From: Beroe forskalii
Taxonomy: Eukaryota; Ctenophora; Nuda; Beroida; Beroidae
Length of the DNA stretch: 64,000 nt
Assembly (NCBI GenBank): GCA_011033025.1
Contig: WFMF01000145.1
Location: 62,001-126,000, forward strand
Direction of reading: 5' to 3'
Below the pieces are notes generated by a model, which made no database searches, had not been told where the DNA came from, and saw nothing but the letters and a program-made list of their open reading frames with translations. The stretch's first letter is position 1. The number at the start of each line of letters is the position of its first letter. Position numbers and translations under genes: made by a program. Below are positions 12,687 to 52,700 of the stretch, in pieces.

Positions 12687-13493
12687 ATGCGGATGGAACT
12701 ATATCAAGAAATAATTAAGTTTATCGGTCCACCAAATCACACTACTGGTTCAACCTTGAAGGATGCTTCTGTACGCTTTGGATGTCAATACAATACTATT
12801 CTTGCTGTATATTTTCAACAAGTTCAGAAGAGATTGAAGAGATTATCTTACCATCATAGTGACACTCATGCTAAAGTTGAACATCTGAAGTTTTATGAGA
12901 CCCAGAATGATGGGAGGAAAGAATTTGTTTATGAAATGGCCATTAAGATAGGAATACCACCAGTTATGCTTTCTAAATTGCTTATAGAGTTGTTAGGTAT
13001 CACTAAGAACCAGACACCTACCCAGTTATTAAGGGATATCAATGCAATTGAAGATGAATGTTTGAGACAGCAAGTTTCCTATTGTCTTGAAAATGATGAC
13101 CAGTTTGGACCCAACATTGATTTGATCAAGAAATCAATTGGTGATGACTATGAGTGTATTCTTAAAGACAAATTGACATTTATGAATATATCATTCAAGG
13201 ATGAAAATGTTTTACGGACTCAAGGGTATGATAAAACCCCTGATATACTGTTAACTGTGCCCATTGCTGTTAACAATTATGTTATCAACTGGATAGAAAG
13301 TAAAGCATCTTTTGGAGATGATTCTACTCATAAACAATATCTTCGAGAGCAATATTGGAGCTATTGGAATAGATTTGGATCAGGACTTGTCATATATTGG
13401 TTTGGTTTCATTGATGAGCTAGCTGATCAGACTTCAGAAAAGGGGATCATTATCATGGATTGTATGCCAAGCAAAGTAACTACTATAGTTTGA
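12687..13493 (+). CDS. CDIN1: CDAN1-interacting nuclease 1 homologue, intronless
   Basis: A single open frame of 268 codons. It matches the CDIN1 (C15orf41) family along its length, from an N-terminal helical region (QEIIKFIGPP) to a highly conserved C-terminal nuclease half. That half contains GYDKTPD, then WIESKASFGD, then YWSYWNRFGSGLVIYWFGFI. The D of TPD and the E-S-K of IESK form the PD-(D/E)XK catalytic signature; the length is close to the usual ~280 residues. In vertebrates the protein binds codanin-1 and mutations cause congenital dyserythropoietic anaemia; its substrate is not settled. The ATG at 12687 is chosen because it matches the family N-terminus; the frame is open to 12666 but without an ATG. 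The vertebrate gene has many introns, so the lack of introns here suggests retroposition or intron loss. The gene sits 437 bp upstream of TRRAP on the same strand. Confidence 0.93.
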   Translation: MRMELYQEIIKFIGPPNHTTGSTLKDASVRFGCQYNTILAVYFQQVQKRLKRLSYHHSDTHAKVEHLKFYETQNDGRKEFVYEMAIKIGIPPVMLSKLLIELLGITKNQTPTQLLRDINAIEDECLRQQVSYCLENDDQFGPNIDLIKKSIGDDYECILKDKLTFMNISFKDENVLRTQGYDKTPDILLTVPIAVNNYVINWIESKASFGDDSTHKQYLREQYWSYWNRFGSGLVIYWFGFIDELADQTSEKGIIIMDCMPSKVTTIV

Positions 13494-28700: not shown

Positions 28701-31700
28701 CTATAATAATGCGTGAGATATTTGCTTGTGTTTGAAATAAACTTGAATTAACCATACGTTAATTATGTGTAATATTTGATCACGTGGGAAAACTTCAAAG
28801 TAGTCTCGTTCAAATGTTAGTCCAAATGATGAAGGCACACGCAGCTCTAAAATGTGCTGGTCGTCAGAAAAAAGCTTAAAAAGCTACGCTCGCTGGTGTT
28901 GGTCGCCATGCTCGACGACCACAATACAATTACAGGTAAAATCTCATCCTACGCTCGCTGGTCGTCAGGGCTGCGCTCGATGGTGTGGTCGCCGGCAAAT
29001 AAATACTTACAATATTCACTGTGTAAACTGTTTTGGCTATAACTTGAGAACGAATAGATATTTTTTCAAAATTATTTTTTCCTCTGGTAGATAAATGATT
29101 TACGAAGATTCTAAGCATGCTTGAATATGTTTATCATCAATAACAAACTGTTGAAACACAAGTAAATATTTAGTTTACGAAAATCCATGTTTTAGCTGTA
29201 ACATTGCATCTGAGCAATATTTTTTTCAAAATTCTTTTTCCCTCTGGTATAGGTTTGTTATGCGAAGATTCTAAACATGCTTAAATGTGTTGATTATTAA
29301 TAACAAGCTGTTGAAACACAAGGAAATATTCAGTTTATGAAAAAAATCTAGTTTTGGCTATAACAATGCGCCTGGTCGATATATTTATTAAATTCTTTTT
29401 TCTCAAGTTGATAAATAATCCATGAAATTTTTCATAATGCTTCAGAGGCTTAGTAGCAACGAAAAGCGGTTGAAACACAAGGAAATGTTTAGTTTCTAAA
29501 AGCTAACTTTCGGTTGAAACATTGCATCTGATTGTTATTTTTTCAAAATTCTTTTTCCTTTTGTTAGATGAATGTTTTTTCGAAGGTTCTAAACATGCTA
29601 AAATAATTGAGTAATGCCAACCAACTGTTGAAACACAAGGAAATATTAAGTTTATGAAAAACTAAGTTTTGGCTCTAACACCTCCTCTGATCGATATTTC
29701 TTCCAAATTCTTTTTTCCTCTGGTAGATGAACGTCCTAATGCTCAGATGGGAAATACCATAAAATTTTTCGCCTGCGGCGGGCTGTTGTGATCAAATTAT
29801 ACATTACAAAATTGAGCTTACAAGCAGATTCGGATGGGAAAACCACGAAATTTTTCGCCTGCGGCGAGCTGTTGTGATCAAATTATACATTACCAAATTG
29901 ATCTTAGAGGCATACTCAGATAGGAAATAGCATAAAATTTTTCGCCTGCGGCGGGCTGTTGTGATCAAATTATACATGACCAAATTGATATTAGAGGCAC
30001 ATTCAGATGGGAAATACCATGAAATTTTTCGCCTGCGGCGAGCTGTTGTGATTAAATTATACATTACCAAATTGATCTTAGGGGCATTGTGTCGATGTGT
30101 ATATGGGTTTATGTCGGCATGCACGTGCACTGTGCAGATAGGGAAAATGCTTGCGTTTCTATGGTAGCATGTGATGTGTGCGAATTTAATTTCTGGCTTT
30201 TTGATCTTTTTGCTACTCCCCCAGAAATTGTAACTTTGGCTCTGATTCGAATTCTTCCCTCCCCAATCGCGTTTTTGTCTTACAATAGAATTACTGTAAT
30301 TTCTGAAAAGTGGCTGGAAAATGGAAGTGGCGAAATTCGTCATAAAACTGGCGTAAATTCATCATGAAACTGGCGTAAATTCGTCATAAAACTGGTGTAA
30401 ATTCGTCATTCAGTCAAGTCTCCTAGCAACTCTTACATTTGCGTGCGCACGACACGCGCGTGAACGCTTGGGCAGGTGTGAAATTGTTGGTGTAAGTTCA
30501 TGCGCGGCACTGTTGGAATCAAACAAGCCACACGAATTACGATATCAGTTGAAATTATTATGTAGAGCATCCAAGAGTTGTGAATTGAGAATCAAAGCAA
30601 AGATGATGAACATTGAAAAGTTTTCCACAAAAAATAGTTTCTCTCCTTCTTTAACTATTCTGTTTCAGCGGAGGGCCCAGCATTTGCGCCGCACACTGCT
30701 GCTTGGAGCTCCGAGAAAATTAAGCGGCTTTCTCATGAACTACTGAGCTCTGAACAAATACTCACACTGCTCTCAGTGTTACAATCACTCATTCGGGTTA
30801 CACATTAGATGTTACATTTTCATTGATGGAAGTTCTGCGCTGCGATTGTGATCATATACTTCTAGCTGGGGGAGGGAAATTGAGCACCTGCATACGGGAA
30901 CAATGGACAAAAAATGTGCCGGCAGGCGCATTTTTTGTTCGATGTGGTGAAAAGTTTTCATTAATATTAATTATTTACGTCCGAAATTTGTGAACGAGGT
31001 GGGGCATAGTGAGCTTTGTATTAGCTGACCCAGCGGGCCTGTTAGTTTTCAAATAATTTCTCAAATGAGCAATAGGACTACAAACATTTGTATCGCAATG
31101 GTGTTCTGCCATACCTTCTATATCCAAAGTTTCAACTTTAAAGTCTAGAAAGTAGATCTTATCCACTGCTTCAGCCTTTATAATCCATTACGTCAGTTTC
31201 CATAGGTCAGGTTCCCTCTTCTTGCTACTTCGAGTGACTGAATTGCTGTGCTATGAGAGTCTCTGCAACGCTGGTATTTATTTTTGCGATTGGGGTCCGG
31301 ACATCAGAGAAAGAAATTATTAAGATTGGAGATGGGATTATTTTCTTGTCACTTGGGGACACTCCATTAATCACTTCATGGAGATACTCCATTGATCAGA
31401 ACTGCATTGTTCTTGCAACTGATCGTCTCCGTGTCGTTGATCATTGGGATGCTTTTATAGATAGGAATACAGTCGTATTGGAATCAAAAGGTACCCTGAT
31501 ATCAGCTATAAATTCATCATCAGTTTGTGAATTTAACATGGATTATCTTTACTTGATGGAACTTTTCAGCCAAAATTCATATTCCTCAATGATGCAAAGA
31601 TTGGTGGACTACAATTGGTATTGTGAACCACAAAATCCTAGAATCTCTAATGATAATCGAGCTGCATATTGTGATGGTTATTCGCATTGTCTAACTGACG

Positions 31701-34700
31701 AATGTAACTGTCAGTCGACCGGTAACAATAATGAATCAAACTCAGTTTTCTTCTGTCTTGATAAATCTGGCTGTATCTCTATCAAGAACGTTTGTGACGG
31801 AAAGCACGACTGCAAAGATGGATCTGACGAGTGTATATGCGAGGGATATATCCAGCTGAATTGCTCGGTATTAGGTTACAAATCGCACTGCATATCACTG
31901 GATAAGTTTTGCTGGAAGCTGTTTGAGAAGTCATGGAGGCAGAGGTTGCTGCTGAAGTGCACTTCAAAAAGGAATCTCTTGGATAAGTGCAAAGGTTTTA
32001 GATCATGGGGATTGAAAAGAAAAACTAACCCAATTGACACATGCTTTTTAGAAAATCCTTGGTTAATTGTCAAAGGTGTTACTGGTGCATCCCACAATGG
32101 GAAATTTGGTGGCATTGTTTCTTTTTGCAAAAGCAATTGTTCAAAATACTACGATGGTAAAAACTGGAGATTTTACTGTAATATGCTTCTACCCTATATT
32201 CCAAGTGGGATGATGGGTCATTCAATCTTTTGTTCTGGAGAGTATCATTATGTCAATATCATTTGTGATGGCCATATTGACTGTGAAAATGAAAAATTAG
32301 ATGAAATGAACTGTCCTGATCGGTTTTACTGTGCTGGAAATAGTACTGAATGGGTTTCTCCCGAAAAAGTTTGTGATAATGTCAAAGATTGCTCAACTGG
32401 GTTGGACGAATGTACGAAATGCAACATGGGATACATGTCATCGTCTGAACTTTTGATAAATTCTAAAGTTGTGCTAGTCCTAACATTAATAAGCTGTATT
32501 TCAATAATCCTACTGAATGGAATACAAGGATACACCTGCCTTGTCACTCCATCTGCCACCCATATTGGTGGAATCAATAGATTAATCACGCTGCAGGTTT
32601 ATCTCTTCGACATGCTAATGGGGGTTTATCAAGCACTGCTAATAATTGCTACTTTAGTCATCATGCTCAAAGGCGATAATTGCGAATTTGATCGGGATTG
32701 GAGGGCAAGTAACTATTGTATTCTTCTGGGAATACTTTACACTTTATCCTCCTACGGTTCACTTCTTTCTATTGTGCATCTGAGTGTAGTGAGGTCCATT
32801 ACGCTGCTGTCAAACAATACCATTCACATCAGAAGGCGGGTTATTCTACGCATATCAGTTGCTCTTTTATGTCTCAATGTTTTAAATTCTATCTTTCCTG
32901 TTATTCCGCTGCCATTCGTACAGGATATCTTTAGAACAGAAATTTACTTAACTCACCCTCGCAAAAATCCGTCCTTCAAGGGTAATCCAATTAACTTTAC
33001 GACTCTTGAAGGAGCTTATGAACGAGTTTATGGTAGGAGAGAATCGAATAAAAACACTATTTTAAGAGATTTCAGGACCACAACCTCCGATAATGAAGTT
33101 TGGCATACCACCGATATCAGTTACTACGGAACATCCGCCCTATGTTTGCACAACGTTTTCAAGTCCCAAGTTTCATTCTATCTTTACAAGATCATATATC
33201 TGGTGGTCATTGTGTTGCTTTTACTCCTCATGTCGGCAGCTTATACTGCGATTATTGCTAAAAATAAGCGCAGCAAGAAGAGCTTACGAGATAAAAATGG
33301 GGAAAGACATAATCACAGAAATGATTATTCAATATCGTTAACGACAAAGCTTTTGTGGATGGTTGGCACCCAGCTGTTGTGTTGGTTCCCGTTCATTGGA
33401 GCTGTCATTTATTACATGTGTAAGGGAGATGATTCACCCCCAAATATTGTTTTTGAGGTGATTTTCTTCTTTGTGATACCAATTAACAGTCTCCTCAATC
33501 CACTGTACCACAGTAAGTTGTATTGTGTCGTAGTTAAAGCCACAAGAGCATTGTTCGCTTGCTGCAAGTCGAAGAAAGCTGAAGATGAAAACCCGGAAAT
33601 CATTGAAATGAAGGATCTAAAACAATGAAATGGCCATATCGGCAATTGAACCAGTTCCTCAATAACGATTAGCAGGATCATGAAAGTATTTAATCTTCAT
33701 GCTTTTATTTGTCATGGTGAGGACTGAATGCCCATTTATAAAGCCCCGTCAACAATTCCAGTATCGAATAACAACGTTTGCTGCTTCATGTTATGCTTAT
33801 AATTAATTAGTTTCCCTCAAAAATAGCTCGAGTCTGTAATTTTTATCGTGCTATGAAAAATTTTAAATTTGTGGAAAGATACTATCACGACTTGAATGGG
33901 GCCAAGGTATCAGGGGAGGGTTTTTTAGGGAATAAGGATCATGTACCTAAATATACCTAATCATCTCAAAAACATCAAACACGATGGAAATATGGTGTAT
34001 TTTTCGATAATTCCAATTTCTAAAAAGGTCCCAAAAACTTCTTTTTCCTTCCTGGATCACAATGCATAATACCATACCCCCTCCCTCAGGTTCGAGAGAA
34101 GCTCTCCTTGAAGCAGCTAGCCGGTATCGTGTACCTGTTCTCTAAAAACGTGCACGACCCCGACCTGACGACCTCCATGCAAAACATGGCGTGCAAGATA
34201 CTGATCAACATCGTGGATTTCATCAACAAGAAGAGCGAAAAGGAGAGCATTTACTCGGGGAGAGAGCTCATGATGCGCATGTTAGAGGTGAGCAAAACCC
34301 AAAATATAATACTCCTTCGTGGTACACTCCATGGCTGTTACCCGTGCAAAGGCCTGCGGTTAGTTCTTTTATCTTATTGTGGAAAGATGATTATCCGGAC
34401 TGCCATTCTGTGTGTTTCATTTTAAAGCGTTGTGAAACTCGGCAAATTCACATTGACTTATTATAGGACTGCCAAACTGTGTGTTTTATTTCTAAGTCTT
34501 GTAAAACTCGGCAAATCACAATGACTCATTATAGGACTGCCATCCTGCCTGCAACACCGTGTTTTGTTCAGGTTTTTGTGCAGAAGTTCCAGACGATAGC
34601 AAAGCACGTGCTGCCCCAGCTCTTTGCTCGGTGTGCTAAGCAAGTAGGCTCCGAGATACCCACCTCCCTTCCTCCAGAAGCGGTTAGTGGTATCATCAGC

Positions 34701-37700
34701 GTATTAGCTTACCCACGGGTCCATGCGACATTGACCAATCAGCACGCGAGTTGACTGCAAACTCGTTTGCTGATTGGTCAATGCCATGACGATGTTGGGA
34801 TGCTAACACGCCATTTGGACTGCGTAGGACCACGGGAGCTGGCAACTAGAGTAGATGCCATGGCATTTGACAAAGTCATGAATCGTTATAACTAGTTTTG
34901 ATGGCGGTGTAGCTTAGTTTGCTGAAGACAATTTATGATGTTTTAGCTCAGTTTGTTAGAGACACATGGTGACGGTTTAGCTCGATCTAAGACAAGAATA
35001 TTTACAGCTTAGTTTTTGTTAAGTTTTGCTATCCACAGGAAGCCCTGAACGAGGCAGCCATGTCATCTACTGCTGGTAAGAAGGGTCAGAACAGTCTGGC
35101 GATGGCAGCGCAGGACTGCAGGATACTCGTCAAAACACTGGGTGAGAATTCTTTGCAGTTACTTTAGCACCTCCGGAGCTGTAAAGCATGAAATTATTGA
35201 ATTTCATTGAGTTTTTAGGAATAAGAACTTAGAATTTAAGCTCTGCTTTTACTGTAAGCAATGGTAAACCTACCCTCTCTTCCGCCCATTGTACAATACG
35301 AACCCCCTTCATTTTTAAATTTATTGCCACGAAGTTTCTTATATTAGAAAGTTTGAGATGTCTCACATTTAAAGAAGTGTTCTCGGTATTGAATAAGAAG
35401 AGTGAAATACAATTCCATTTTCATAATAATGTTCAACACCAAAAAATTTTACTTGCATCTAGAATCAAATCTTAAAGAAGATCAATAGCTTCTTGAAATG
35501 TGTACAGTAGATTAATTAATCTAAAACCACTTAATTAAATTGTCCAATGTCCACTGTCCACTGTCCAATTCCTGCCTCTCAACACCCCATTACTCCACGG
35601 TGACAGAGATAGGGTCGGAGGTGATGGTTTCACCGTTGTGTTCCAGGGTCAGGACCCAATCTCCCTCGGTCAGATGATATCCTTTCCAGACTCCGATCCT
35701 CCGGAACAGGAATCCTTTCTTGTGGTCGTGTTTAGCGTTCTGACAGTTCTCCACGCCAGCTCCTTTTACCTTGCAGATGCTGGCCTGCACCTCAGTCACC
35801 ACTTCTCCGGCACTGTCTGTGATGGTGTAGGAAACGTGGCATTTCTCTCCCGCATGGCAGGTTTTGCTGGTAAATCTCGGGGTGATGGTTAGTGTGTCAT
35901 CTTCAACAGCCAGACTTAGCTCCTCCGATACTGGGTCTGAAGGAAGTGAGGAATCTTCAGGAGGATTCTAAATCATACTTTAAATTAGCGCTATTCTGGC
36001 AAAGTATTTCATTAAGTGCTGGAATCATGTAGTTGGTATTGGAGTTCCTTGTCGAATACATTCCTATTTCCTAGTACCTCCTATTCTCTGTGTTTTGAAA
36101 CTCACCGCAGCCATTCCTCTTGAAGTAGCTGGTGAACCTATCATCACCTTTATAGCTTGCCACCTTCTCCCGGTATGCCTCATAGCCCGCCTCTCCCTTG
36201 TTCACTACGGTATTTCCATCTGCTGACGCCAGGTCACAGGCACCGATGCTGAAATGGATGAGAATTACCTTACAACAAATTCATATTATGATGTGTTGTA
36301 AATCCGTTAGGGCACCATACTTCTTTGCTGAGAAAGTCTCAATGAAATGGCTACTTCATAAAATACACAGGCACTGAAGGCCAACCCTCAATTTTTTGGA
36401 TATTGAAGTCACCAACAGGGGGCTTAATCTTTGAGATTTAGGGGGTTTCCCTGGCATAGAATATCTTAAAACCCTTACTGTTCATAGCAGCGGAAACCGT
36501 CACACAGATCGTCAGTTTTGCACATTTCGAAGGCCTGCTGGGCCGGGGACTCGTAGTCGCCGTTCTTCCAGATCACTGGACGGGTGTACTCTCTGGCAGC
36601 GTTCTTAACCCGCCAATTGAACATCCAACCCACTTCCTGGTCGTAACATGGGAACTGAGCAGCTCCCAAACCTGGGGTTAGGTGGTGAGGGCTCCCAAAC
36701 CTGGGGTTAGGTGGTGAGGGCTCCCAAACCTGGGGTTAGGTGGTGAGGGCTCCCAAACCTGGGGTTAGGTGGTGAGGGCTCCCAAACCTGGGGTTAGGTG
36801 GTGAGGGCTCCCAAACCTGGGGTTAGGTGGTGAGGGCTCCCAAACCTGGGGTTAGGTGGTGAGGGCTCCCAAACCTGGGGTTAGGTGGTGAGGGCTCCCA
36901 AACCTGGGGTTAGGTGGTGAGGGCTCCCAAACCTGGGGTTAGGTGGTGAGGGCTCCCAAACCTGGGGTTAGGTGGTGAGGTCTCCCAAACCTGGGGTTAG
37001 GTGGTGAGGGCTCCCAAACCTGGGGTTAGATGGTGAGGGCTCCCAAACCTGGGGTTAGGTGGTGAGGGCTCCCAAACCTGGGGTTAGGTGGTGAGGGCTC
37101 CCAAACCTGGGGTTAGGTGGTGAGGGCTCCCAAACCTGGGGTTAGTGGTGAGGCTCCCAAACCTGGGGTTAGGTGGTGAGGGCTCCCAAACCTGGGGTTA
37201 GGTGGTGAGGGGAGCAAGTAAGGAGAGAGGGGATCATGGGTTTATTTAACCTTGCAGATCGAAGTTTAAATAAACCCGAAATTCAAATAAAACTTGACAC
37301 ATTATTTTATATTTCCACACCAAATGAATGAAAGTAAGAGTGCTATGGTTGAATAATACGAACCAAGGAAAGCCACGAAAAGTACCAGAGTAGTTGCCAT
37401 CTTTTACTGCCTACAAATAGTTGTTGAGGTTAAAGGATTGATATCAACTTGACAGGTAATAAACTTGTCTTTCTGTGATTCGGACAAAGGGAAGAACATT
37501 TTCATGAACATTACTGATATAGGAACTTACAGCTGACATTTCATGATGCTGGCTAACGCTACTTAGATTTCCTTGGATATTTAGAGATGTCTTTAAACAG
37601 TGACTGAAGTTTCCACGCTTTGAATAAGGAAAGTAGAGTATTATTACATATTCAGAATAATTTTCAAAAACAAAAATCATGCTTGCATCTAAAATCCAAT

Positions 37701-40700
37701 CTTTAAAATAGATCCAAAGAAAAAAGAAGTAGAACTATTTCATTATTTAAAAGTTAAATCTAAGTGTCCTGCCTCTCAACACCCCGTTACTCCACGGTGA
37801 CAGAGATAGGGTCGGAGGTGATGGTTTCACCGTTGTGTTCCAGAGTCAGGACCCAATCTCCCTCGGTCAGATGATATCCTTTCCAGACTCCGATCCTCCG
37901 GAACAGGAATCCTTTCTTGTGGTCGTGTTTAGCGTTCTGACAGTTCTCCACGCCAGCTCCTTTTACCTTGCAGATGCTGGCCTGCACCTCAGTTACCACT
38001 TCTCCAGCACTGTCTGTGATGGTGTAGGAAACGTGGCATTTCTCTCCCGCATAGCAGGTTTTGCTGGTAAATCTCGGGGTGATGGTTAGTGCGTCATCTT
38101 CAACAGCCAGACTTAGCTCCTCTGATACTGGGTCTGAAGGAAATGAGGAATCTTCAGGAGGATTCTAAATCTTACTTTAAATTAGCGCTATTCTGGCAAA
38201 GTATTTCATTAAGTGCTGGAATCATATAGTTGGTATTGGAGTTCCTTGTCGAATATATTCCTATTTCCTAGTACCTCCTATTCTCTGTGTTTTGAAACTC
38301 ACCGCAGCCATTCCTCTTGAAGTAGCTGGTGAACCTATCATCACCTTTATAGCTTGCCACCTTCTCCCGGTATGCCTCATAGCCCGCCTCTCCCTTGTTC
38401 ACTACGGTATTTCCATCTGCTGACGCCAGGTCACAGGCACCGATGCTGAAATGGATGAGAATTACCTTACAACAAATTCATATTATGATGTTTTGTAAAT
38501 CCATTCGGGCACCATACTTCTTTGCTGAGAAAGTCTCAATGAAATGGCTACTTCATAAAATACACAGGCACTGGAGCATATAGAAGGCCAACCCTCAATT
38601 TTTTGGATATTGAAGTCACCAACAGGGGGCTTAATCTTTGAGATTTAGGGGGTTTCCCCGGCATAGAATATCTTAAAACCCTTACTGTTCATAGCAGCGG
38701 AAACCGTCACACAGATCGTCAGTTTTGCACATTTCGAAGGCCTGCTGGGCCGGGGACTCGTAGTCGCCGTTCTTCCAGATCACTGGACGGGTGTACTCTC
38801 TGGCAGCGTTCTTAACCCGCCAATTGAACATCCAACCCACTTCCTGGTCGTAACATGGGAACTGAGCAGCTCCCAAACCTGGGGTTAGGTGGTGAGGGCT
38901 CCCAAACCTGGGGTTAGATAAGTAGATAGTGAGGGCTCCCAAACCTGGGGTTAGGTGGTGAGGGCCCCCAAACCTGGGGTAAGGTGGTGAAGGCTCCCAA
39001 ACCTGGGGTTAGGTGGTGAAGGCTCCCAAACCTGGGGTTAGGTGGTGAGGGCTCCCAAACCTGGGGTTAGGTGGTGAGGGCTCCCAAACCTGGGGTTAGG
39101 TGGTGAGGGCTCCCAAACCTGGGGTTAGGTGGTGAGGGCTCCCAAACCTGGGGTTAGGTGGTGAGGGCTCCCAAACCTGGGGTTAGGTGGTGAGGGCTCC
39201 CAAACCTGGGGTTAGGTGGTGAGGGCTCCCAAACCTGGGGTTAGGTGGTGAGGGCTCCCAAACCTGGGGTTAGGTGGTGAGGGCTCCCAAACCTGGGGTT
39301 AGGTGGTGAGGGCCTGGGGTTAGGTGGTGAGGGCTCCCAAACCTGGGGTTAGGTAGTGAGGGCTCCCAAACCTGGGGTTAGGTGGTGAGGGCTCCCAAAC
39401 CTGGGGTTAGGTGGTGAGGGGAGCAAGTAAGGAGGGAGAGGATCATGGGTTTAAATATTTAACCTTGCAGATCGAAGGTTAAATAAACCCGAAATTCAAA
39501 TAAAACTTGACACAATATTTTATGTTTCCACACCAAATTAATGAAAGTTAGAGTGCTATGGTTGAATAATACGAACCAAGGAAAGCCACGAAAAGTACCA
39601 GAGTAGTTGCCATCTTTTACTGCCTACAAATAGTTGTTGAGGTTAAAGGATTGATATCAACTTGACAGGTAATAAACTTGTCTTTCTGTGATTCGGACAA
39701 AGGGAAGAACATTTTCATGAACATTACTGATATAGGAACTTACAGCTGACATTTCGTCATGCTATCTAACGCTACTTAGAATGTTAGATTTCCTTGGATA
39801 TTTAGAGATGTCTTTAAACAGTGACTGCAGTTTGCAGGCCTTAAATAAGGAAAGTAGAGTATTATAACATATTCGTATATTCAGAATGATTTTCAAAAAC
39901 AAAAATCATGCTTGCATCTAAAATCCAATCTTTAAAATAGATCCAAAGAGAAAGAAGTAGAACTATTTCATTATTTAAAAGTTAAATCTAAGTGTCCTGC
40001 CTCTCAACACCCCATTACTCCACGGTGACAGAGATAGGGTCGGAGGTGATGGTTTCACCGTTGTGTTCCAGGGTCAGGACCCAATCTCCCTCGGTCAGAT
40101 GATATCCTTTCCAGACTCCGATCCTCCGGAACAGGAATCCTTTCTTGTGGTCGTGTTTAGCGTTCTGACAGTTCTCCACGCCAGCTCCTTTTACCTTGCA
40201 GATGCTGGCCTGCACCTCAGTCACCACTTCTCCAGCACTGTCTGTGATGGTGTAGGAAACGTGGCATTTCTCTCCCGCATGGCAGGTTTTGCTGGTAAAT
40301 CTCGGGGTGATGGTTAGTGTGTCATCTTCAACAGCCAGACTTAGCTCCTCCGATACTGGGTCTGAAGGAAATGAGGAATCTTCAGGAGGATTCTAAATCA
40401 TACTTTAAATTAGCGCTATTCTGGCAAAGTATTTCATTAACTGCTGGAATCATATAGTTGGTATTGGAGTTCCTTGTCGAATATATTCCTATTTCCTAGT
40501 ACCTCCTATTCTCTGTGTTTTGAAACTCACCGCAGCCATTCCTCTTGAAGTAGCTGGTGAACCTATCATCACCTTTATAGCTTGCCACCTTCTCCCGGTA
40601 TGCCTCATAGCCCGCCTCTCCCTTGTTCACTACGGTATTTCCATCTGCTGACGCCAGGTCACAGGCACCGATGCTGAAATGGATGAGAATTACCTTACAA

Positions 40701-43700
40701 CAAATTCATATCATGATGTTTTGTAAATCCATTTGGGCATCATACTTCTTTGCTGAGAAAGTCTCATTGAAATGGCTACTTCATAAAATACACAGGCACT
40801 GGAGCATATAGAAGGCCAACCCTCAATTTTTTGGATATTTATTACCAACAGGGGCTTAATTTTTGAGATTTAGGGGGTTTCCCCGGCATAGAATATCTTA
40901 AAACCCTTACTGTTCATAGCAACGGAAACCGTCACACAGATCGTCAGTTTTGCACATTTCGAAGGCCTGCTGGGCCGGGGACTCGTAGTCGCCGTTCTTC
41001 CAGATCACTGGACGGGTGTACTCTCTGGCAGCGTTCTTAACCCGCCAATTGAACATCCAACCCACTTCCTGGTCGTAACATGGGAACTGAGCAGCTGCCA
41101 AACCTGGGGTTAGTTGGTGAGGGCCCCAAAACCTGGGGTTAGGTTGAGGGCCCAAACCTGGGGTTAGGTGGTGAGGGCTCCCAAACCTGGGGTTAGGTGG
41201 TGAGGGCTCCCAAACCTGGGGTTAGGTGGTGAGGGCTCCCAAACCTGGGGTTAGGTGGTGAGGGCTCCCAAACCTGGGGTTAGGTGGTGAGGGCTCCCAA
41301 ACCTGGGGTTAGTGGTGAGGGCTCCCAAACCTGGGGTTAGGTGGTGAGGGCTCCCAAACCTGGGGTTAGGTGGTGAGGGGTTCCCAAACCTGGGGTTAGG
41401 TGGTGAGGGCTCCCAAACCTGGGGTTAGGTGGTGAGGGCTCCCAAACCTGGGGGTTAGGTGGTGAGGGCTCCCAAACCTGGGGTTAGGTGGTGAGGCTCC
41501 CCAAACCTGGGGTTAGGTGGTGAGGGCTCCCAAACCTGGGGTTAGGTGGTGAGGGCTCCCAAACCTGGGGTTACTCCCAAACCTGGGGGGTGGTGAGGCT
41601 CCCAAACCTGGGGGTGAGGGATCATGGGTTTATTTAACCTTGCAGATCGAAGTTTAGATAAACCCGAAATTCAAATAAAACTTGACACATTATTTTATAT
41701 TTCCACACCAAGTAAGAGTGCTATGGTTGAATAATACGAACCAAGGAAAGCCACGAAAAGTACCAGAGTAGTTGCCATCTTTTACTGCCTACAAATAGTT
41801 GTTGGGGTTAAAGGATTGATATCAACTTGACAGGTAATAAACTTGCCTTTCTGTGATTCGGACAAAGGGATGAACATTTTCATGAACATTACTGATATAG
41901 GAACTTACAGCTGACATTTCGCCATGCTATCTAACAATACTTAGAATGTTAGATTTCCTTGGATATTTGATGTCTTTAAACAGTGACTGAAGTTTTCAGG
42001 CCTTAAATAAGGAAAGTAGAGTATTATAACATATTCGTATATTCAGAATAATATTCAAAAACAAAAATCATGCTTGCATCTGAAATCCAATCTTTAAAAT
42101 AGATCCAAAGAAAAAAGAAGTAGAACTATTTCATTATTTAAAAGTTAAATCTTAGTGTCCTGCCTCTCAACACCCCATTACTCCACGGTGACAGAGATAG
42201 GGTCGGAGGTGATGGTTTCACCGTTGTGTTCCAGAGTCAGGACCCAATCTCCCTCGGTCAGATGATATCCTTTCCAGACTCGATCCTCCGGAACAGGAAT
42301 CCTTTCTTGTGGTCGTGTTTAGCGTTCTGACAGTTCTCCACGCCAGCTCCTTTTACCTTGCAGATGCTGGCCTGCACCTCAGTCACCACTTCTCCAGCAC
42401 TGTCTGTGATGGTGTAGGAAACGTGGCATTTCTCTCCCGCATAGCAGGTTTTGCTGGTAAATCTCGGGGTGATGGTTAGTGTGTCATCTTCAACAGCCAG
42501 ACTAAGCTCCTCTGATACTGGGTCTGAGGGAAATGAGGAATCTTCAGGAGGATTCTAAATCATACTTTAAATTAGCGCTATTCTGGCAAAGTATTTCATT
42601 AACTGCTGGAATCATGTAGTTGGTATTTGAGTTCCTTGTCGAATATATTCCTATTTCCTAGTACCTCCTATTCTCTGTGTTTTGAAACTCACCGCAGCCA
42701 TTCCTCTTGAAGTAGCTGGTGAACCTATCATCACCTTTATAGCTCGCCACCTTCTCCCGGTATGCCTCATAGCCCGCCTCTCCCTTGTTCACTACGGTAT
42801 TTCCATCTGCTGACGCCAGGTCACAGGCACCAATGCTGAAATGGATGAGAATTACCTAAGAACAAATTCATATTATGGAAAAATTTCCTTTCATATATTC
42901 GTCAGGGCACCATGCTGGTTTGCTGCAAAGTGGCAACAGAAATTAATGCCTAGGGGTCCAAACCCCAACCTTTATAATCTAAAGCCAGTGGGGATTTTTA
43001 TTAAGGGGATGTGATAAAGCCCTGCTTTGACTTACTGTTCTATAGTTCAGGGAAACCCACACTAATCGTCAGGTTTGCATATTTCGAAGGCCTGCTGGGC
43101 CGGGGACTCAGGAATCTTCCAGATCACTGAGACAGGGGCCGCGTTCTTAACCCGCCAATTGAACATCCAACCCACTTCCTGGTCGTAACATGGGAACTGA
43201 GCCCTTGGCCTGAGGTTGTTAGGTGTCGGGCCCCAAACCTGGGGTTAGGTGGTGAGGGCTCCCAAACCTGAGGTTAGGTGCTGAGGGCTCCCAAAACCTG
43301 GGGGTTAGGTTGTTTGGGGCTCCCAAACCTGGGGGTTGGTATAGGGCTCCCAAACCTGGGGTTAGGTGGTGAGGCTCTCCCAAACCTGGGGTTGGGTAGT
43401 GAGGCCCCCAAACCTGGGGTTAGGTGGTGAGGGCTCCCAAACCTGGGGTTAGGTGGTGAGGGCTCCCAAACCTGGGGTGAGGTAGTGAGGGCTCCCAAAC
43501 CTGGGGTTGGGTGGTGAGGGCTCCCAAACCTGGGGTTAGGTGGTGAGGCTCCCCAAACCTGGGGTTAGGTGGTGAGGGCTCCCAAACCTGGGGTTAGGTG
43601 GTGAGGGCCCCAAACCTGGGGTTAGGTGGTGAGGGTTCCCAAACCTGGGGTTGGGTGGTGAGGGTCTACCAAACCTGGGGGGTAAGGTGGTGAGGGCTCC

Positions 43701-46700
43701 CAAACCTGGGGTTAGGTGGTGAGGCTCCTTAACCCAGGGTTAGGTAGTAAGGCTCCCAAACCTGGGGTTTGGTGGTGAGGGCTCCCAAACCTGGGGATAG
43801 GTGGTGAGGCTCCCAAACCTGGGTTAGGTGGTGAGGGGCTCCCAAACCTGGGGTTAGGTGGTGAGGGTTCCTAAACCTGGGGTTAGGTGGTGAGGGCTCC
43901 TAAACCTGGGGTTAGGTGGTGAGGGCTCCCAAACCTGGGGTTAGGTGGCGAGGGCTCCCAAACCTGGGATTAGGTGGTGAGGGCTCCAAAACCCGGGTTA
44001 GGTGGTGAGGGCTCCCAAACCTGGGGTTAGCTGTGAGGGCTACCAAACCTGCGGTTAGGTGGTGAGGGCTCCCAAACCTGGGGTTAGGTGGTGAGGGGGT
44101 CAAGTTAGGAGGGAGGGGATCATGGGTTTTATCTAACCTTCAAATCGCATGTTAAATAAACCCGAAATTCAAATAAAACTTGACAAATTATTTTATATTT
44201 CCACACCAAATGAATGAAAGTAAGAGTGCTATGGTTGAATAATACGAACCAAGGAAAGCCACGAAAAGTACCAGAGTAGTTGCCATCTTTTACTGCCTAA
44301 AAATAGTTGTTGAGGTTATTAAAGGATTGATATCAACTTGACAGGTAATAAACTTGTCATTTCTGTGATTCGGACAAAGGGAAGAACATTTTCATGGACA
44401 TTACTGATATAGGCGGGGGAGATTCGGGTACTAAGTTGCAGACACAGGGCCGGTGGGTGGGTCTATTTTTCCCTCGAATGTTGTTTAGTACTTGGGTACT
44501 AAAATACGTGGTCATCAGCTGAATTTGAAAATCAGTTGGTACCTGGGTACTAAAATACGTCGATATCTACTGATTTCGTAGTATCAGAGTATGAAATGTT
44601 TACTTTACCCCGTAAACTGCGGAAAACTCCTCTCCAAATGTAATTTACTAAAAATTAATTACATTTTGGAGAAAAATTTTCACAGTTTTCTGCCTGATCA
44701 CACAGTACTACAGTAATCAAATAATGTGATACGTTTTGGAGCTAGCAGCAATCACTGAGTTTGCAGTGTTAGCTCACAGAATAATAAAATAGAAATGAGC
44801 GGAATCGGTTGCTAAATCCGGACGCTTAGGTAACTCACTGAGCTATTTGACCACCAAACATTCTGCAAATATTTAGCAATTTTGGAAAATCTATGTTTTA
44901 GGTTAACAAAGATCCAAAGTTTCGATCGGGCTCAATATGAATATATAATTATTCATACTAGCGTTTTTGGGCAATTTTTAGCTAGTAACTTTAAAGTAAC
45001 GTGACCATATTATGCATTTTAGTTTTCGTTCCCTGAGGGGAAATTTAACTTCATCAAGTATACCTTCTGGTTATTATGTTGCGATATATACCTTCGCCTC
45101 TTGTTGTTATATTTTGACTAAAAGCTTACAGTTTCTAATTTCAGTGTCTTATGAGTTAAGATGTAAATATTAGAAACGCATTTTATTGATTTTCATGGTC
45201 ATGTGATCTAACGGGTGATGACTAATTATCTGCCCGGCTCAATGTGTTTTTGTATCAAATCAGGAGATCATTTTAGAGCTCAGATGTGATTATTCTGGAC
45301 CTATTAAGTCTGCTGATTCAGAATAACATCATGGGAAAATTTGAAAACCCTGTTTTCCCATGCTACTGGCCGGTTATTTAAGAAAATGCCAAAATCTTGC
45401 ACAAATTTAAAGATTGACTCCCTGACATATGATTGGAATATGGCCTACAGGAGCGTTCCCATCAGTTACCATCTAGGTTGACTTATGGACTTCGTTAGCT
45501 AAGACGCTATTGAAGACCTCTACATGCATTTTTCGGTGAAGATTAAGAAAATTCTTAGTTTTAGAGCTAAAATAATGCCAAATTTATGGAAAAATTTATG
45601 TGTTTTTACACCACCAGGCCTTACGAGTCTTAGAACAGGACCTTAGTTGTCTGAACACTCAGATTTAATGGCAGGGACCTCATTCAACATAATCCATGTC
45701 TTTGGACCACTTCCATTTAATGGTATGCCGAATTTTGGATTTACAAATCAAAATTTTATGAAAGTGAAATTATCAGAATTGACGATTTTAAACACGTTTT
45801 AGGTTCCATAGGGTCACCACTGGATAAGTTAGTGATGCTACTCACTGCAGTCACTCTTGAGACCCTCCTGCTTAGAATCATCCCATAGTAAGGCTTTATT
45901 AACACTTTGGGGATAATTATCGCCATTGAAATTTTGTGCAAGATTTTTCTGTACCTTCTCAAACTAATTGGTCAATAGCATGAGAAAACAGGGTTTTCAA
46001 ATTTTCTCATGATGTGATTCTCAATCAGCAGGCTTTTTTAGGTCCAGAATAACCTCATCTGAGCCCTAACATGATCTCGATTTGCCCACAAGAACACATT
46101 GAAACAATTCCAGATAATTAGTCATCACCCGTTAAGTCACGAGATGAAAATCAGAAATTGATTATCTCAAAAAAACTAGAAAAGATTTAAAACGAACAAT
46201 CGAATAGGAATGAAATGGGTAAATTGGTTATGAGTAAGATTTCATCGGAAAAATTCATCCAAATACTGAAGAGCATAAAATTGCCTATAACTGTGGAAAA
46301 AAGATGTTTTCCCACAAGGTTATTGGCCATTGTCCCAAATAATTGAGAACCTTCATTATCTAGGATAATGACGTCATCGGAAAAATATAGTTAAGCGCAT
46401 CTAGCGCTTTAAGTTTTAGGTTAGAACCAGGATTAGGGTCAGGATTTGTTAGGTTCAGGGTAAAGATTAAGGTTATGGTTGTGGCTGGGGTTAGGTTTAG
46501 GGTTAGCCACAAAAATATTGAGGTTTTAGTCTGTGACGTCAATCAGCCAGAGTTATATGGGACACATACCAGGTTATTTTGCAGGGTACAAATGTCAACT
46601 TTACCTGGCGCAAAACAAATGAAGGGTTTAGTTGTATGATCTTATGATGATTGAAGCTATTCTAATAGTGCCTATTTCAATATCAAATAGCACTTTTCAG

Positions 46701-49700
46701 ATTCCTTTGTACTACGAGAGTCTGAAATTCAATGTTCTATTCTGGAACTGTTCCAAAATCTTGAATTTAGGTGGGTGTCTTAATTTTTCATGCCAAAACC
46801 ACTTAGTACCCAGGTACCAAAATTCAGGTGGGTGGTATCAACTCAAAAAAATGCCAAAATGCAGGATCGTCGGCCCTGTGTCTGCAACTTAGTACCCGAA
46901 CCTCCCCCGATATAGGAACTTACAGCTGACATTTCGTCATGCTATCTAACGCTACTTAGAATGTTAGATTTCCTTGGATATTTAGAGATGTCTTTAAACA
47001 GTGACTGAAGTTTGCAGGCCTTAAATAAGGAAAGTAGAGTATTATAACATATTCGTGTATTCAGAATAATTTTCAAAAACAAAAATCATGCTTGCATCTA
47101 AAATCCAATCTTTAAAATAGATTCAAAGAAAAAAGAAGTAGAACTATTTCATTATTTAAAAGTTAAATCTAAGTGTCCTGCCTCATAATACCATCCCATT
47201 ACTCCACGGTGACAGAGATAGGGTCGGAGGTGATGGTTTCACCGTTGTGTTCCAGAGTCAGGACCCAATCTCCCTCGGTCAGATGATATCCTTTCCAGAC
47301 TCCGATCCTCCGGAACAGGAATCCTTTCTTGTGGTCGTGTTTAGCGTTCTGACAGTTCTCCACGCCAGCTCCTTTTACCTTGCAGATGCTGGCCTGCACC
47401 TCAGTCACCACTTCTCCAGCACTGTCTGTGATGGTGTAGGAAACGTGGCATTTCTCTCCCGCATGGCAGGTTTTGCTGGTAAATCTCGGGGTGATGGTTA
47501 GTCCGTCATCTTCAACAGCCAGACTTAGCTCCTCTGATACTGGGTCTGAGGGAAATGAGGAATCTTCAGGAGGATTCTAAATCATACTTTAAATTAGCGC
47601 TATTTTGGCAAAGTATTTCATTAAGTGCTGGAATCATATAGTTGGTATTTGAGTTCCTTGTCGAATATATTCCTATTTCCTAGTACCTCCTATTCTCTGT
47701 GTTTTGAAACTCACCACAGCCATTCCTCTTGAAGTAGCTGGTGAACCTATCATCACCTTTATAGCTTGCCACCTTCTCCCGGTATGCCTCATAGCCCGCC
47801 TCTCCCTTGTTCACTACGGTATTTCCATCTGCTGACGCCAGGTCACAGGCACCGATGCTGAAATGGATGAGAATTACCTTACAACAAATTCATATTATGG
47901 AAAAATTTCCTTTCATACATTCGTCAGGGCACCATGCTGGAGGCAAGATATGAATTGCAGACAGGAATTAATGCCTAGGGGTCCAAACCCCAACCTTTAT
48001 GGGTTTTATAATCTAAAGCCGATGGGGAATTTTATTAAGGGGATGTGATAAAGCCCTACTGACTTACTGTTCATAGCAACGGAAACCGTCACACAGATTG
48101 TCAGTTTTGCACATTTCGAAGGCCTGCTGGGCCGGGGACTCGTAGTCGCCGTTCTTCCAGATCACTGGACGGGTGTACTCTCTGGCAGCGTTCTTAACCC
48201 GCCAATTGAACATCCAACCCACTTCCTGGTCGTAACATGGGAACTGAGCAGCTCCCAAACCTGGGGTTAGGTGGTGAGGGCTCCCAAACCTGGGGTTAGG
48301 TGGTGAGGGCTCCCAAACCTGGGATTAGGTGGTGAGGGCTCCCAAACCTGGGGTTAGGTAGTGAGGGCCCCCAAACCTGGGGTTAGGTGGTGAGGGCTCC
48401 CAAACCTGGGGTTAGGTGGTGAGGGCTCCCAAACCTGGGGTGAGGTAGTGAGGACTCCCAAACCTGGGGTGAGGTAGTGAAGACTCCCAAACCTGGGGTT
48501 AAGTAGTGAGGGCTCCCAAACCTGGGGTTAGGTGGTGAGGGCTCCCAAACCTGGGGTTAGGTGGTGAGGGCTCTCAAACCTGGGGTTAGGTGGTGAGGGC
48601 TCCCAAACCTGGGGTGAGGTGGTGAGGGCTCCCAAACCTGGGGTTAGGTGGTGAGGGCTCCCAAACCTGGGGTTAGGTGGTGAGGGCTCCCAAACCTGGG
48701 GTGAGGTAGTGAGGACTCCCAAACCTGGGGTGAGGTAGTGAGGACTCCCAAACCTGGGGTTAAGTAGTGAGGGCTCCCAAACCTGGGGTTAGGTGGTGAG
48801 GGCTCCCAAACCTGGGGTTAGGTGGTGAGGGCTCTCAAACCTGGGGTTAGGTGGTGAGGGCTCCCAAACCTGGGGTTAGGTGGTGAGGGCTCCCAAACCT
48901 AGGGTTAGGTGGTGAGGGCTCCCAAACCTGGGGATAGGTGGTGAGGGCTCCCAAACCTGGGGTTAGGTGGTGAGGGCTCCCAAACCTGGGATTAGGTGGT
49001 GAGGGCTCCCAAACCTGGGGTTACGTGGTGAGGGCTCCCAAACCTGGGGTTAGGTAGTGAGGGGGTCAAGTTAGGAGGGAGGGGATCATGGGTTTTATCT
49101 AACCTTCAAATCGCAGGTTAAATAAACCCGAAATTCAAATAATACTTGACACAATAGTTTTTATTTCCACATCAAGTGAATGAAAGTTAGAGTGCTATGG
49201 TTGAATAATACGAACCAAGGAAAGCCACGAAAAGTACCAGAGTAGTTGCCATCTTTTACTGCCTACAAGTAGTAGTGAGGTTAAAGGATTGATAACAAAT
49301 TGAGAGGTGCTGTGATTCAGACTAATGGAAGAAAATTTCCATGAACAAAACTGATAGAAGTATAGACTACCTATCGATCACAGTGGCTGACCCTTACAAT
49401 GGCATTTACACGATTATGAACAGAAATTGTCTTGATACCGAGGAATGGAGTACCCACATTTACATTTTTACATGAACTAGCAGAGAGATACTCACTGCTT
49501 CGCTATACCTAGAACTGAATGACTTTCCTGAGAGAACAGTCGTATTTATAGTTTATACTGGGGGTTCTACGTCATTTGACCCACCACTCTGAGCACAAGT
49601 CTTTTTCACAGAATTTAACGTTATTAATTCATTAGTTTCAGGTCATTATATTGCACACCTGTTTTGAGGCTTTACCGTTTATTAATTTTCTATTGTTAAT

Positions 49701-52700
49701 TTTCACCGCTAGAAACTGAATTAGCTCCCATTGACCATTAAATTTTACAAAACTCTGGGCAGGGTTTCAAAAGTTCAAAGGGATTTATCTCTGCTTTTTG
49801 AGCAATAAAAACGAGGAGAATGTTTTATTGTTTTAACCAGTTTGTGTTAGGAAGGATTCTGAGAATGCTGAATGGTTACTGGTTATCGATTAGTGTAAAA
49901 TGTAAGACAAGAGATTCTATGGCATTGATATAGTCTAGTTCTCAAAGCAGAAGCCGCGTAATTTCCAAACCAAATTCTGCACATGCTTAATCTTGAAGTC
50001 TTTAATTTATTTTATTTTCATATTAACACTCATCCATTTATTAAGATTTAGTGTAAAAGCAAATGCAATTTGAGCAAATTCAAATTATGATTTACATCTG
50101 GCCCAGTGCCCTGTTGGATCGAATGCACTAAACATGCTGCTCCTTGAGGCCTGAAGGTCCAAAAGGCAGAAGTTGAGGATGACGACTTTGGGTTAGATGA
50201 AAGGTCATCGTAGCTATACCAGTCACCAGAAAACTTAGCCGATTGACTAATCTTGTTTCAAGCTTAAGATATGGGATTTTGAAAATCGGAATTTGCCTGT
50301 AGTTATCAATTGCAGTGCGCGCACAGCCACGCAGACTTACCTACCAATTGCCAAAAACCAATTTTACGAGTTCAAAATCCATCAACATTTTTTGCGAATA
50401 ATCCGGTTCTGTTCTAAAACAAAAAATTTAAAAAAGGAGAATTTCTAAGAATTTTGCAAAAAAATACCAAGAATTTGCGGCAAAAATTGTATCGAAAATT
50501 GGCTATTTTGATTACATAATCAACCACTAAAACCCCTTCCCCCTCCTTGTAATCAAACGTTATCATTTGAAACCCCCTCCCTCTAGTAGGGGGGTCAAAA
50601 CATGCACAGAGTGGCATTTTGTACACAGGGTACTAGCACGAATTACGAAATAACGCGAAAAAGTGTAACACATTATTTTTCGCATTAAAAGTGCCATTAC
50701 TCAAGAGGTATGAATGTGTTCCGTCTGAAATATGAATATTACCGTAGAACACGTATAGAAGCAGAACAGTGACTACTTTCTTCTGGAAATTTTGCTCCTC
50801 ACGGAAGTTATGGCCAAAAATGACGCAATTTTGCAGAATTTGTGTACACAAATGCTCATATATCTCTTCTCATGATCCGATTTTCAGAACAAATATAGTC
50901 AGTGTTGCTGTTTATTATATTTCTCAACTTTTCTCAAAGTTTCATGATGATTCGATGAAAAATGGGAAAGATATACAAAATTGAAAATCCAGTTTTTCAC
51001 TGCGACATGCGTAACTGACATAATATTCCAAATTAACGAAACTAATTTGCGCGCACGTGCTTCGTTTAAACATTTAGAATTGCGCGCGCTGTTTGAATGC
51101 ACACTGGGCGCTTGTGAGCTATTAAACAGTGTTTTCATATTTGTTCTACGTCTATCCTGAGATCAAAATACGTCCGAATTTTGACCAGTTGACTCTGAAG
51201 ATGCATAACTCTTCTTCCACATAATGTATTGCCCCGGAAGTTTCGAAGAACGTCAGAGAAATGATCAAGCTTTGATTTCCATGTTTTTTCTTGTCGTTTG
51301 AGCGATGATTTCCCATTTTGTGAGGACGATTAATATGCGAAATTTCAAGCGAAATTTTGAGCACGGCTCCTTGTCCACGTGCAGCCTATAACAGTATAAC
51401 TCTCAAATTATCAAAAAGGGCAATAAAAGTTTGTTTGAAAGAACTCATCGTGCTCTTCATTTTGGTACCATTTTTGTGGGAATTTCTCCAAGTCGATTTT
51501 TCGTGTGACTCCCCTACCGCTAGATTATTACGTAATATGTGAGCGATCCCTGATTTAAAGTCCAAGCTTTGATTCTAATCTGAGGAATTCTCGGAATTGT
51601 TTTAACTTTCTTGCGATGATTTTTGTTTAGTACCAACGACCCTTTTAGCGAGCACTAAGCGGTAAGCTTAGTATGTGCTTGGTCCAGCTAACGGTTAACA
51701 ACCCTTGCCATGATCATGAGTATTGTTTACTAATCACATGCTGTATTGTTTACGAGATTTCTTGTGAAATAAAATTTAGTGAAGACTAATAACCGTGATA
51801 TGATAATTTTCGCAACTAATGAAGTAATTAATGCCTTTCAACTTAACAGGTGCAAAAAAATCTGAAACTAATTCGTAATTCCTCGAAATTTAAGGATTTT
51901 CTTGAAAAAATGGTGCTTGAAGATTGAAATACTGAAATAGAATTAGAACTGCAGACGACTAACAGAGTTCAGGTATCAACCAATTCCTTCAGAATTCGGA
52001 TTCTTCTCCTAATTATTTAGTAAATAGACATTAGTACATTTAATTATTTTGTATTAGGGCATGCATTTAAATTCCAAAAGAATTAAATAAAGGAACGGGT
52101 TATCAGTTACTATTTACTATCTAATCAGTTACTATCAGTTACTACTTTCTACCGTTCACCATTTCCATGTGTTTCAAACAGCAATTGATTGCGCATCCAC
52201 AGCAGTTTCTCAGAATTCCAAATTAATTAAACACTATTCTTGGGCAGTAAAATTTCACACTTGAAGTTTCAGATATTTGCCCAATCTGATAATGATGGCC
52301 GTACAATTGATAACCTCATTTGCTGGGTTGGTCACATGATTCGAACTTTGAACTTACCTGGTACACTGAAATTTCAAATCCTTGTGTCGAATGAAAAATA
52401 CATTTTTCAAAAAATTAAGAAGGTTGCCATGTATTATAACTTTTGGCAATGTTCAGAGTGACCATCTGTTTTCCTGGGAAGGTACAGGATTCGTTTCCAT
52501 CCACAGTAGCCCTGGCAACAGGACCTCCCGTCCTCCCAGTGGCAGGTCCCGTGATGGGGACTCTGTTTGGATGTCTTGTAGATCTATCCCCGTTTTATTA
52601 GTAGACCATGAGTCCCCAACACCTTCAGTTTGCGGAGTTAAGACGATCACGTGGACAGTTAGCTGTTACAAGCACCCTCCCACACAAAACCAGCAGAAGT

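Follow-up and report, generated by a model that had tools for sequence, protein, structure and literature searches.

The window, a stretch of 64,000 nucleotides of Beroe forskalii DNA, carries on its minus strand a tandem array of five gene copies (35590-49252), four of which are intact genes and one a pseudogene; our favored reading, held tentatively, is that they encode a secreted, disulfide-rich, two-domain protein of an expanded family that may serve as a matrix or mucus component. Copies 1 (35590..37400; exons 37400-37364, 36671-36479, 36248-36106, and 35936-35590), 2 (37787..39613; exons 39613-39577, 38878-38686, 38445-38303, and 38133-37787), 3 (40015..41778; exons 41778-41742, 41103-40911, 40673-40531, and 40361-40015), and 5 (47199..49252; exons 49252-49216, 48260-48068, 47857-47715, and 47545-47199) are intact: their exons measure 37, 193, 143, and 347 nt, all introns are of the GT/AG type, and the frame (720 nt of coding sequence in copy 1) stays open over a 239-residue product. 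In copy 4 (42178..44286), deletions in exon 2 (174 nt) break the frame, and one base is missing from exon 4 (346 nt); relative to the other copies its exon 2 is ~80% identical, and its exons 3 and 4 are 98-99% identical. The first-pass annotation had described five copies with identical exon lengths and a 236-residue product; five copies are indeed present, but copy 4 is a pseudogene, the lengths are shared by only four of the five, and the intact gene models give 239 residues. The ten cysteines it counted are carried by all four intact products, and its statement that the last 70 residues are identical in copies 1, 2, 3, and 5 was conservative: these products vary only at residues 15, 67, 139, and 152, and the last 87 residues are thus identical. 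It had overlooked the decay of copy 4, a minisatellite of splice sites, the gene whose intron encloses the array, and the recurrence of both protein domains in other architectures.

The enclosing gene is a TRRAP orthologue on the plus strand, identified by comparison with PDB TRRAP chains and by its splice junctions; the entire array lies, in opposite orientation, within a single intron of 17.5 kb (35142..52628). The TRRAP exon upstream of the array ends ..DCRILVKTL(V), the downstream exon begins (V)CGVKTITW.., and the two join at residue 519 of 9caf_D.

Judged by its anatomy, the ~25 kDa product (pI 5.2) comprises a putative signal peptide followed by two domains, an N-domain with six cysteines and a C-domain with four, all of these cysteines being invariant across the 15 sequences compared for each domain. 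The signal peptide, claimed earlier as well, was assigned by eye (MATTLVLFVAFLGLGAAQ), and the product is predicted to be secreted. The family had been called impossible to place, and profile searches with the product gave no strong match in Pfam or PDB: in Pfam the 239-residue product matched no family, VWD and C8 domains included, and no PAN model at E values up to 10, and the best PDB profile E values were 0.66 for the N-domain and 0.55 for the C-domain, neither convincing. A search of prokaryotes and viruses with exon 4, which reaches close relatives only, yielded no relatives, and two peptides of the product were not found in open-licence full texts.

The C-domain is probably an immunoglobulin (Ig)-like beta-sandwich without the usual Ig disulfide. 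The modeled fold of exon 4, predicted from the single sequence, has eight strands, and the top Foldseek matches to the C-domain model were Ig V-type and Fc-receptor domains (E about 0.02). Its F-strand motif, GDWV or GDYV in most members, sits at the position of 'G.Y.C' in the I-set and V-set domains of the Ig superfamily, but the usual F-strand cysteine is missing, and four other cysteines, the pairs C20/C26 and C48/C58 in C-domain numbering, are invariant instead. The B-F disulfide with its Y.C motif was not found, which is not decisive alone because some Ig domains lack it. At the sequence level, however, the Ig assignment was dropped, the only profile match being borderline: hhalign of the C-domain against Ig domains of this genome scored 14.6, and the 12 controls reached at most 12.3. 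None of at least 127 Pfam I-set matches across the genome (150 of 388 candidates scored) fell on a C-domain; the Pfam families listed when 15 C-domains were searched at E values up to 1 include no Ig model; and a V-set match over the C-domain of locus L021 was below the cut-off (17.3 versus 26 bits). Ig-like identity is kept as an inference at the level of the fold. DUF3859 and DUF3659 were also considered and rejected. The former reached 25.7 bits against a cut-off of 24 on a whole four-C-domain protein of contig C166, but no single stretch passed, the best single C-domain of 15 having an E value of 0.074; the latter matched one C-domain at E 0.00089, but gave only 16.8 of the 24.8 bits needed in L027.

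By eye, the N-domain resembles PAN/Apple (PF00024) in having A..C..D..C.G..C.....CDL between its terminal cysteines. Against 36 PAN sequences from the same genome it scored 12.49 in hhalign (four shuffles, 8.3-10.8), but PAN identity was rejected on sequence grounds, since a reversed control reached the same 12.49 and the PAN_1 model misses the N-domain loci: at least 117 PF00024 matches were made across the genome (150 of 222 candidates scored), none at an N-domain locus. Fifteen N-domain sequences searched against Pfam at E values up to 1 gave no PAN model.

Both domains recur elsewhere in the genome. A search with the product found 62 matching stretches, counting the exons of the array itself, and the ORFs of 28 loci contained 33 N-domain and 34 C-domain matches at E<1e-3, many of them exon halves. 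Besides the N-C order of the array, N-N, N-N-C, and tandem C architectures occur, as do further arrays, and by these similarities the array is one branch of an expanded family that shuffles its two domains. VWD-C8-Ig proteins of the same genome also end in a C-domain, which is terminal in six or more proteins or exons of the VWD/Ig type; Pfam finds VWD and C8 in L021 and L027, an I-set domain immediately precedes the C-domain at six of six such loci (C44, C164 twice, C192, C502, and C185), and a C-domain taken from a VWD protein recovers the array in a reciprocal search at E 1.9e-5. VWD-C8 gel-forming and matrix proteins are of the mucin, SCO-spondin, and FCGBP type. The array product consists of N- and C-domains only, in contrast to these proteins, and has no VWD, C8, or VWC. 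In the favored reading, the product would be exported and become part of an extracellular layer of gel, mucus, or matrix, in soluble or cross-linked form, perhaps beside the VWD-C8-Ig-C proteins through the common C-domain.

A single-acceptor comparison is provided by a relative on another contig (C469), which has exons of 37, 193, 143, and 353 nt, a single intron 1 acceptor, and 160 of 239 residues identical to the array product. The two differ mostly at synonymous sites (dN 0.24 and dS 0.76 by NG86, dN/dS ~0.3). Because the exon plan is retained and the differences are of this kind, the array reading frame is more than a chance reading; the comparison supports the gene model and indicates coding constraint through purifying selection.

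A role in humoral defense, in which the N-domain binds microbial ligands, the Ig-like C-domain connects to either effectors or the mucus gel, and the copies were amplified for dose, is unlikely. Two small disulfide-rich domains, tandem arrays, and genome-wide domain shuffling would suit it, as would the lower conservation of the N-domain relative to the C-domain (64/124 versus 96/115 residues identical to the C469 relative). However, the copies have been homogenized rather than diversified, with only the four variable residues noted above and a dN/dS under 0.4 for each of the six pairs of intact copies, and no Pfam recognition domain was found in the product, nor any significant one in N-domain members.

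The near-identity of the copies had been taken as typical of an abundantly needed product, but this argument was abandoned, as recent duplication and gene conversion account for the similarity without selection for dose. Among intact copies the exons are 98.3-100% and intron 3 is 96.4-98.8% identical, dS is 0.013-0.032, and dN/dS is ~0.14 to 0.37 (six pairs, with three to eight differences each); the copies are mosaic through gene conversion. Intron 3, presumably neutral, is roughly as similar as synonymous sites, and near-identity extends to the pseudogene. Both observations also favor a neutral by-product, in which an orphan gene for a secreted protein happened to duplicate in a TRRAP intron, its copies were kept nearly identical by conversion, and its minisatellite is harmless because exon definition always selects the exon-proximal acceptor. 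In its favor, too, one of the five copies is already dead, but four frames are open and the comparison with the C469 relative points to purifying selection; moreover, such an account addresses copy number and not the protein, and we do not think it likely. A mild codon bias of the array genes (CAI 0.50-0.51, versus 0.29-0.34 for three further genes in the window and a self-score of 0.75 for the EF1A reference) is no more than suggestive, because an unrelated HBS1-like fragment reaches 0.52.

Intron 1 is composed of a 29-bp minisatellite, each unit of which contains a 3' splice site followed by ten exon bases; in copy 1 the unit reads CCTCACCACCTAACCCCAG|GTTTGGGAGC, and the 3'-most unit is the predicted exon 2 acceptor. 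By TRF, the minus-strand repeats span 36662..37211 in copy 1 (19.0 units), 38869..39420 in copy 2 (19.0), 41094..41573 in copy 3 (16.7), 43228..44097 in pseudogene copy 4 (30.1, with 87% matches), and 48251..49063 in copy 5 (28.0). Counting as acceptors only those reading CCCAG, CTCAG, or TCCAG, 78 of the 84 found across the four intact copies would send the frame into an early stop, at codon 20 in 65 cases. Branch-point-like CTAAC motifs lie mostly 35 nt upstream of the next acceptor. The exon 1 5' splice site is a weak GTTCGT in all five copies, unlike the GTAGGA, GTGAGT, or GTAAGT of those relatives for which exon 1 was found. Within the gene family, upstream copies of the acceptor were present in 6 of 25 rows; among the 25, two (C469) are placed slightly within the exon instead of at its acceptor, and a third (C708 exon 4) is doubtful as an acceptor. 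Three separate amplifications were seen (C187 intron 1, C708d intron 1, and C708b/c intron 2). No amplification was detected at the 24 donors examined, two C166 donor patterns without a match being left out. For the transcript of the interferon-induced gene 6-16 (IFI6), Turri, Cuin and Porter reportedly described in 1995 a minisatellite bearing multiple splice donor sites. It would likewise be a short tandem repeat built of splice sites within a gene, but of donor (5') sites, whereas the array repeats acceptor (3') sites together with a branch-point-like motif and an exon start. Among the open-licence full texts listed by phrase searches, none had acceptor minisatellites as its subject, as far as titles and the opening lines of abstracts reveal.

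The minisatellite could in principle act as a brake, splicing to upstream acceptors giving early-stop mRNAs that are destroyed, so that repeat number sets the output of each copy. The predominance of early stops, the spacing of the CTAAC motifs, and the weak 5' splice site are all consistent with this. However, the upstream units hold just ten exon bases, and a full exon with its donor favors its own acceptor, here the last; repeat number also varies freely among copies (16.7 to 30.1). We consider such a brake distinctly unlikely, and likewise the broader proposition that runaway amplification of 3' splice sites recurs in this genome and here forms a rheostat, in which all acceptors except the last one or two per copy are decoys giving an early stop and their number tunes the output of each copy. 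The three acceptor amplifications in the family, with none at the donors, would fit it. A venom, antimicrobial, or adhesive product of one gland or cell type is very unlikely: small, secreted, cysteine-rich, multicopy proteins are common among such products and the ten-cysteine array product fits that profile, but it has no similarity to Pfam families of these kinds and its C-domain also caps VWD-C8-Ig proteins.

Under the matrix or mucus reading, the copies would have arisen by tandem duplication and been kept similar by gene conversion. After the split from the single-acceptor C469 relative, the intron 1 acceptor would have expanded into the minisatellite of complete 3' splice sites, and productive mRNA would require the spliceosome to choose the exon-proximal acceptor, which is presumably the one used.

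The array amounts to a natural test of how 3' splice sites are chosen, with four near-identical genes of 17 to 28 near-identical acceptors each, nearly all of them unproductive apart from the exon-proximal one, and the C469 relative as a single-acceptor control; it could address whether the choice is made by exon definition or by a scan that starts at the first branch point. If our reading of the protein is correct, this animal lineage would possess, as building blocks, two small domains rich in disulfides and outside Pfam families, which it joins to one another and to gel proteins of the VWD/Ig type.

Five tandem minus-strand gene copies (35590..49252) are housed in a 17,487-nt intron of TRRAP, a conserved gene on the opposite strand that surrounds the array. 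Peptides from 34144-34251 and 52628-52783 match TRRAP chains in the PDB, human ones included, and the TRRAP exon junctions 35141/35142 and 52628/52629 connect in frame; in the alignment to chain 9caf_D, the upstream exon reaches residue 519 and the downstream exon begins at 519. The match of DCRILVKTL, the short end of the upstream exon, is not significant on its own. Elsewhere in the window, a single-frame gene at 12666-13493, presumably CDIN1/C15orf41, encodes a TPD domain (PF14811, E 4.1e-54), and 19929-33628 holds three tandem, largely intronless membrane-protein genes with LDL-receptor class A repeats, GPCR by eye. The middle one is split across two frames, and a repeat in the third is Pfam-confirmed.

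In every intact copy, four exons of 37, 193, 143, and 347 nt, separated by introns in phases 1, 2, and 1, yield a 239-residue product with 10 cysteines. The first-pass annotation gave identical exon lengths to the whole array; this is correct for copies 1, 2, 3, and 5 but not for copy 4, where the frame is lost in exons 2 and 4. The four intact products differ only at residues 15, 67, 139, and 152; assuming cleavage after residue 18, the mature protein is computed to be ~25 kDa with a pI of 5.2 and no N-glycosylation motif. A relative on contig C469 has an open frame in exons of 37, 193, 143, and 353 nt and is identical at 160/239 residues (dN 0.24 and dS 0.76 by NG86; 0.23 and 1.09 by YN00). 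The splice plan of the array is thus conserved across real evolutionary distance.

Most of intron 1 in all five copies is a 29-bp tandem repeat, with 19.0 units in copy 1 and in copy 2, 16.7 in copy 3, 30.1 in copy 4, and 28.0 in copy 5. In gene orientation, the unit CCTCACCACCTAACCCCAG/GTTTGGGAGC combines a branch-point-like CTAAC motif with a 3' splice site and the ten bases that open exon 2; the 3'-most unit is the true acceptor in the gene model. Of the 84 acceptors of this kind that the four intact copies contain, 6 (1, 2, 2, and 1 per copy) give the full frame; the other 78 lead to an early stop, 65 of them at codon 20. As a rule, splicing favors an acceptor with a complete exon and its donor behind it; the exon-proximal acceptor is the only one so placed and is therefore the probable choice. 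All 60 genome occurrences of the 22-nt unit core lie within the array. The C469 relative has a single acceptor of similar sequence, CTAACACCTGACACCCCAG/GTTTGGCTGC, and the amplification therefore postdates its split from the array; it probably preceded the array duplication, as all five copies carry the repeat. On its G-rich strand, the unit carries four runs of G, and the 51 overlapping quadruplex-like motifs in the copy 1 repeat may make it unstable.

Acceptor repeats arose separately in the relatives on contig C708, where 29- and 31-bp tandem repeats lie over 3' splice sites (L014:3155-3269, L013:4966-5062, and L013:7536-7597): 29 bp x 4.0 at the exon 2 acceptor of C708d, and 31 bp x 3.1 and x 2.0 at the exon 3 acceptor of two of the three genes, the third having one. 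Overall, upstream acceptor copies were found in 6/25 acceptor rows tested, and none of 24 donors tested had upstream copies. A minisatellite in the interferon-induced 6-16 transcript reportedly provides multiple splice donors, whereas the array repeat provides acceptors; no acceptor-type minisatellite was among the papers listed by searches of open-licence literature. Tandem repeats abound in the window, and other large minisatellites, with unit lengths of 28 and 16 bp (56222-57936 and 60730-61259), lie near TRRAP exons.

Intron 2 is of two kinds, one shared by copies 1-3 (95.6-98.3% alike) and the other by copies 4-5 (90.4%); between the kinds it is 57-66% alike, and yet the flanking exons are 98-100% alike across all intact copies. 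In copy 4, a decayed exon 2 (about 80%) sits next to exons 3 and 4, which are at 98-99%. Such mosaicism is characteristic of gene conversion or unequal exchange. Near-identity had been read as a sign of demand for the product, but it is no proof by itself because intron 3, presumably neutral, is 96.4-98.8% alike among intact copies, about the same as synonymous sites. Between copies 4 and 5, the 2.5-kb insert at 44414-46909 is a DNA-transposon-like element: its inverted ends span 39 nt and mismatch at one position, and the target duplication is the 7-bp ATATAGG; its empty site is found beside copies 1-3 (37515, 39728, and 41893).

The product matched 62 stretches of the 216-Mb, 1134-contig genome at E <= 0.001, including the array's own exons. 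Fetched loci include N-C genes with introns (C469, C708) and without (C35), N-N (C655, C1024, C2, and a stop-interrupted case on C571), N-N-C (C292), and, on C166, four C-domains in a single frame adjoining N exons. The C-domain also ends VWD-C8-Ig frames: an I-set domain directly precedes it at six loci (C44, C164 twice, C192, C502, and C185), with VWD and C8 Pfam-confirmed in two and, in three others, recognized by eye. Reciprocally, the C-domain of a VWD protein retrieves the array (E 1.9e-5). The N-terminal stretch of the C185 protein (L032:2795-5095) resembles, by eye, an F5/8-type or fucolectin-like domain.

The family could not be placed, as the first-pass annotation had also concluded: the whole product had no Pfam match at E up to 10, its single domains had no convincing Pfam family, and sequence and profile searches of the PDB returned nothing for either. 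Six cysteines are invariant in 15 aligned N-domains and four in 15 C-domains; the ten of the product thus split into six and four, which would fit intradomain bonds. A resemblance of the N-domain to PAN, seen by eye, received no backing from profile comparison. A low-confidence model, built for exon 4 from its sequence alone, shows eight strands, with Ig V-type, Fc-receptor, filamin, arrestin, and Vps26 domains as structural neighbors at middling scores. Against Ig domains of the same genome, the C-domain profile scored 14.6 (E 0.045; 12 controls, 8.1 to 12.3), aligning in the Ig F-strand register. We infer that the C-domain is an Ig-like sandwich, but one without the usual Ig disulfide.

Codon bias of the array genes is moderate (CAI 0.50-0.51, versus 0.29-0.34 for other window genes and 0.75 for EF1A as its own reference), and an unrelated HBS1-like fragment reaches 0.52, so strong expression is only a possibility. 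Because the GTTCGT donor is weak and decoy acceptors are present, a brake on dosage is worth a test. Neither domain has a Pfam name, and their relatives may well already be deposited as hypothetical proteins. Tentatively, the reading best backed by the anatomy of the product and by the domains that accompany its C-domain is that the protein is secreted and forms part of an extracellular gel or matrix.
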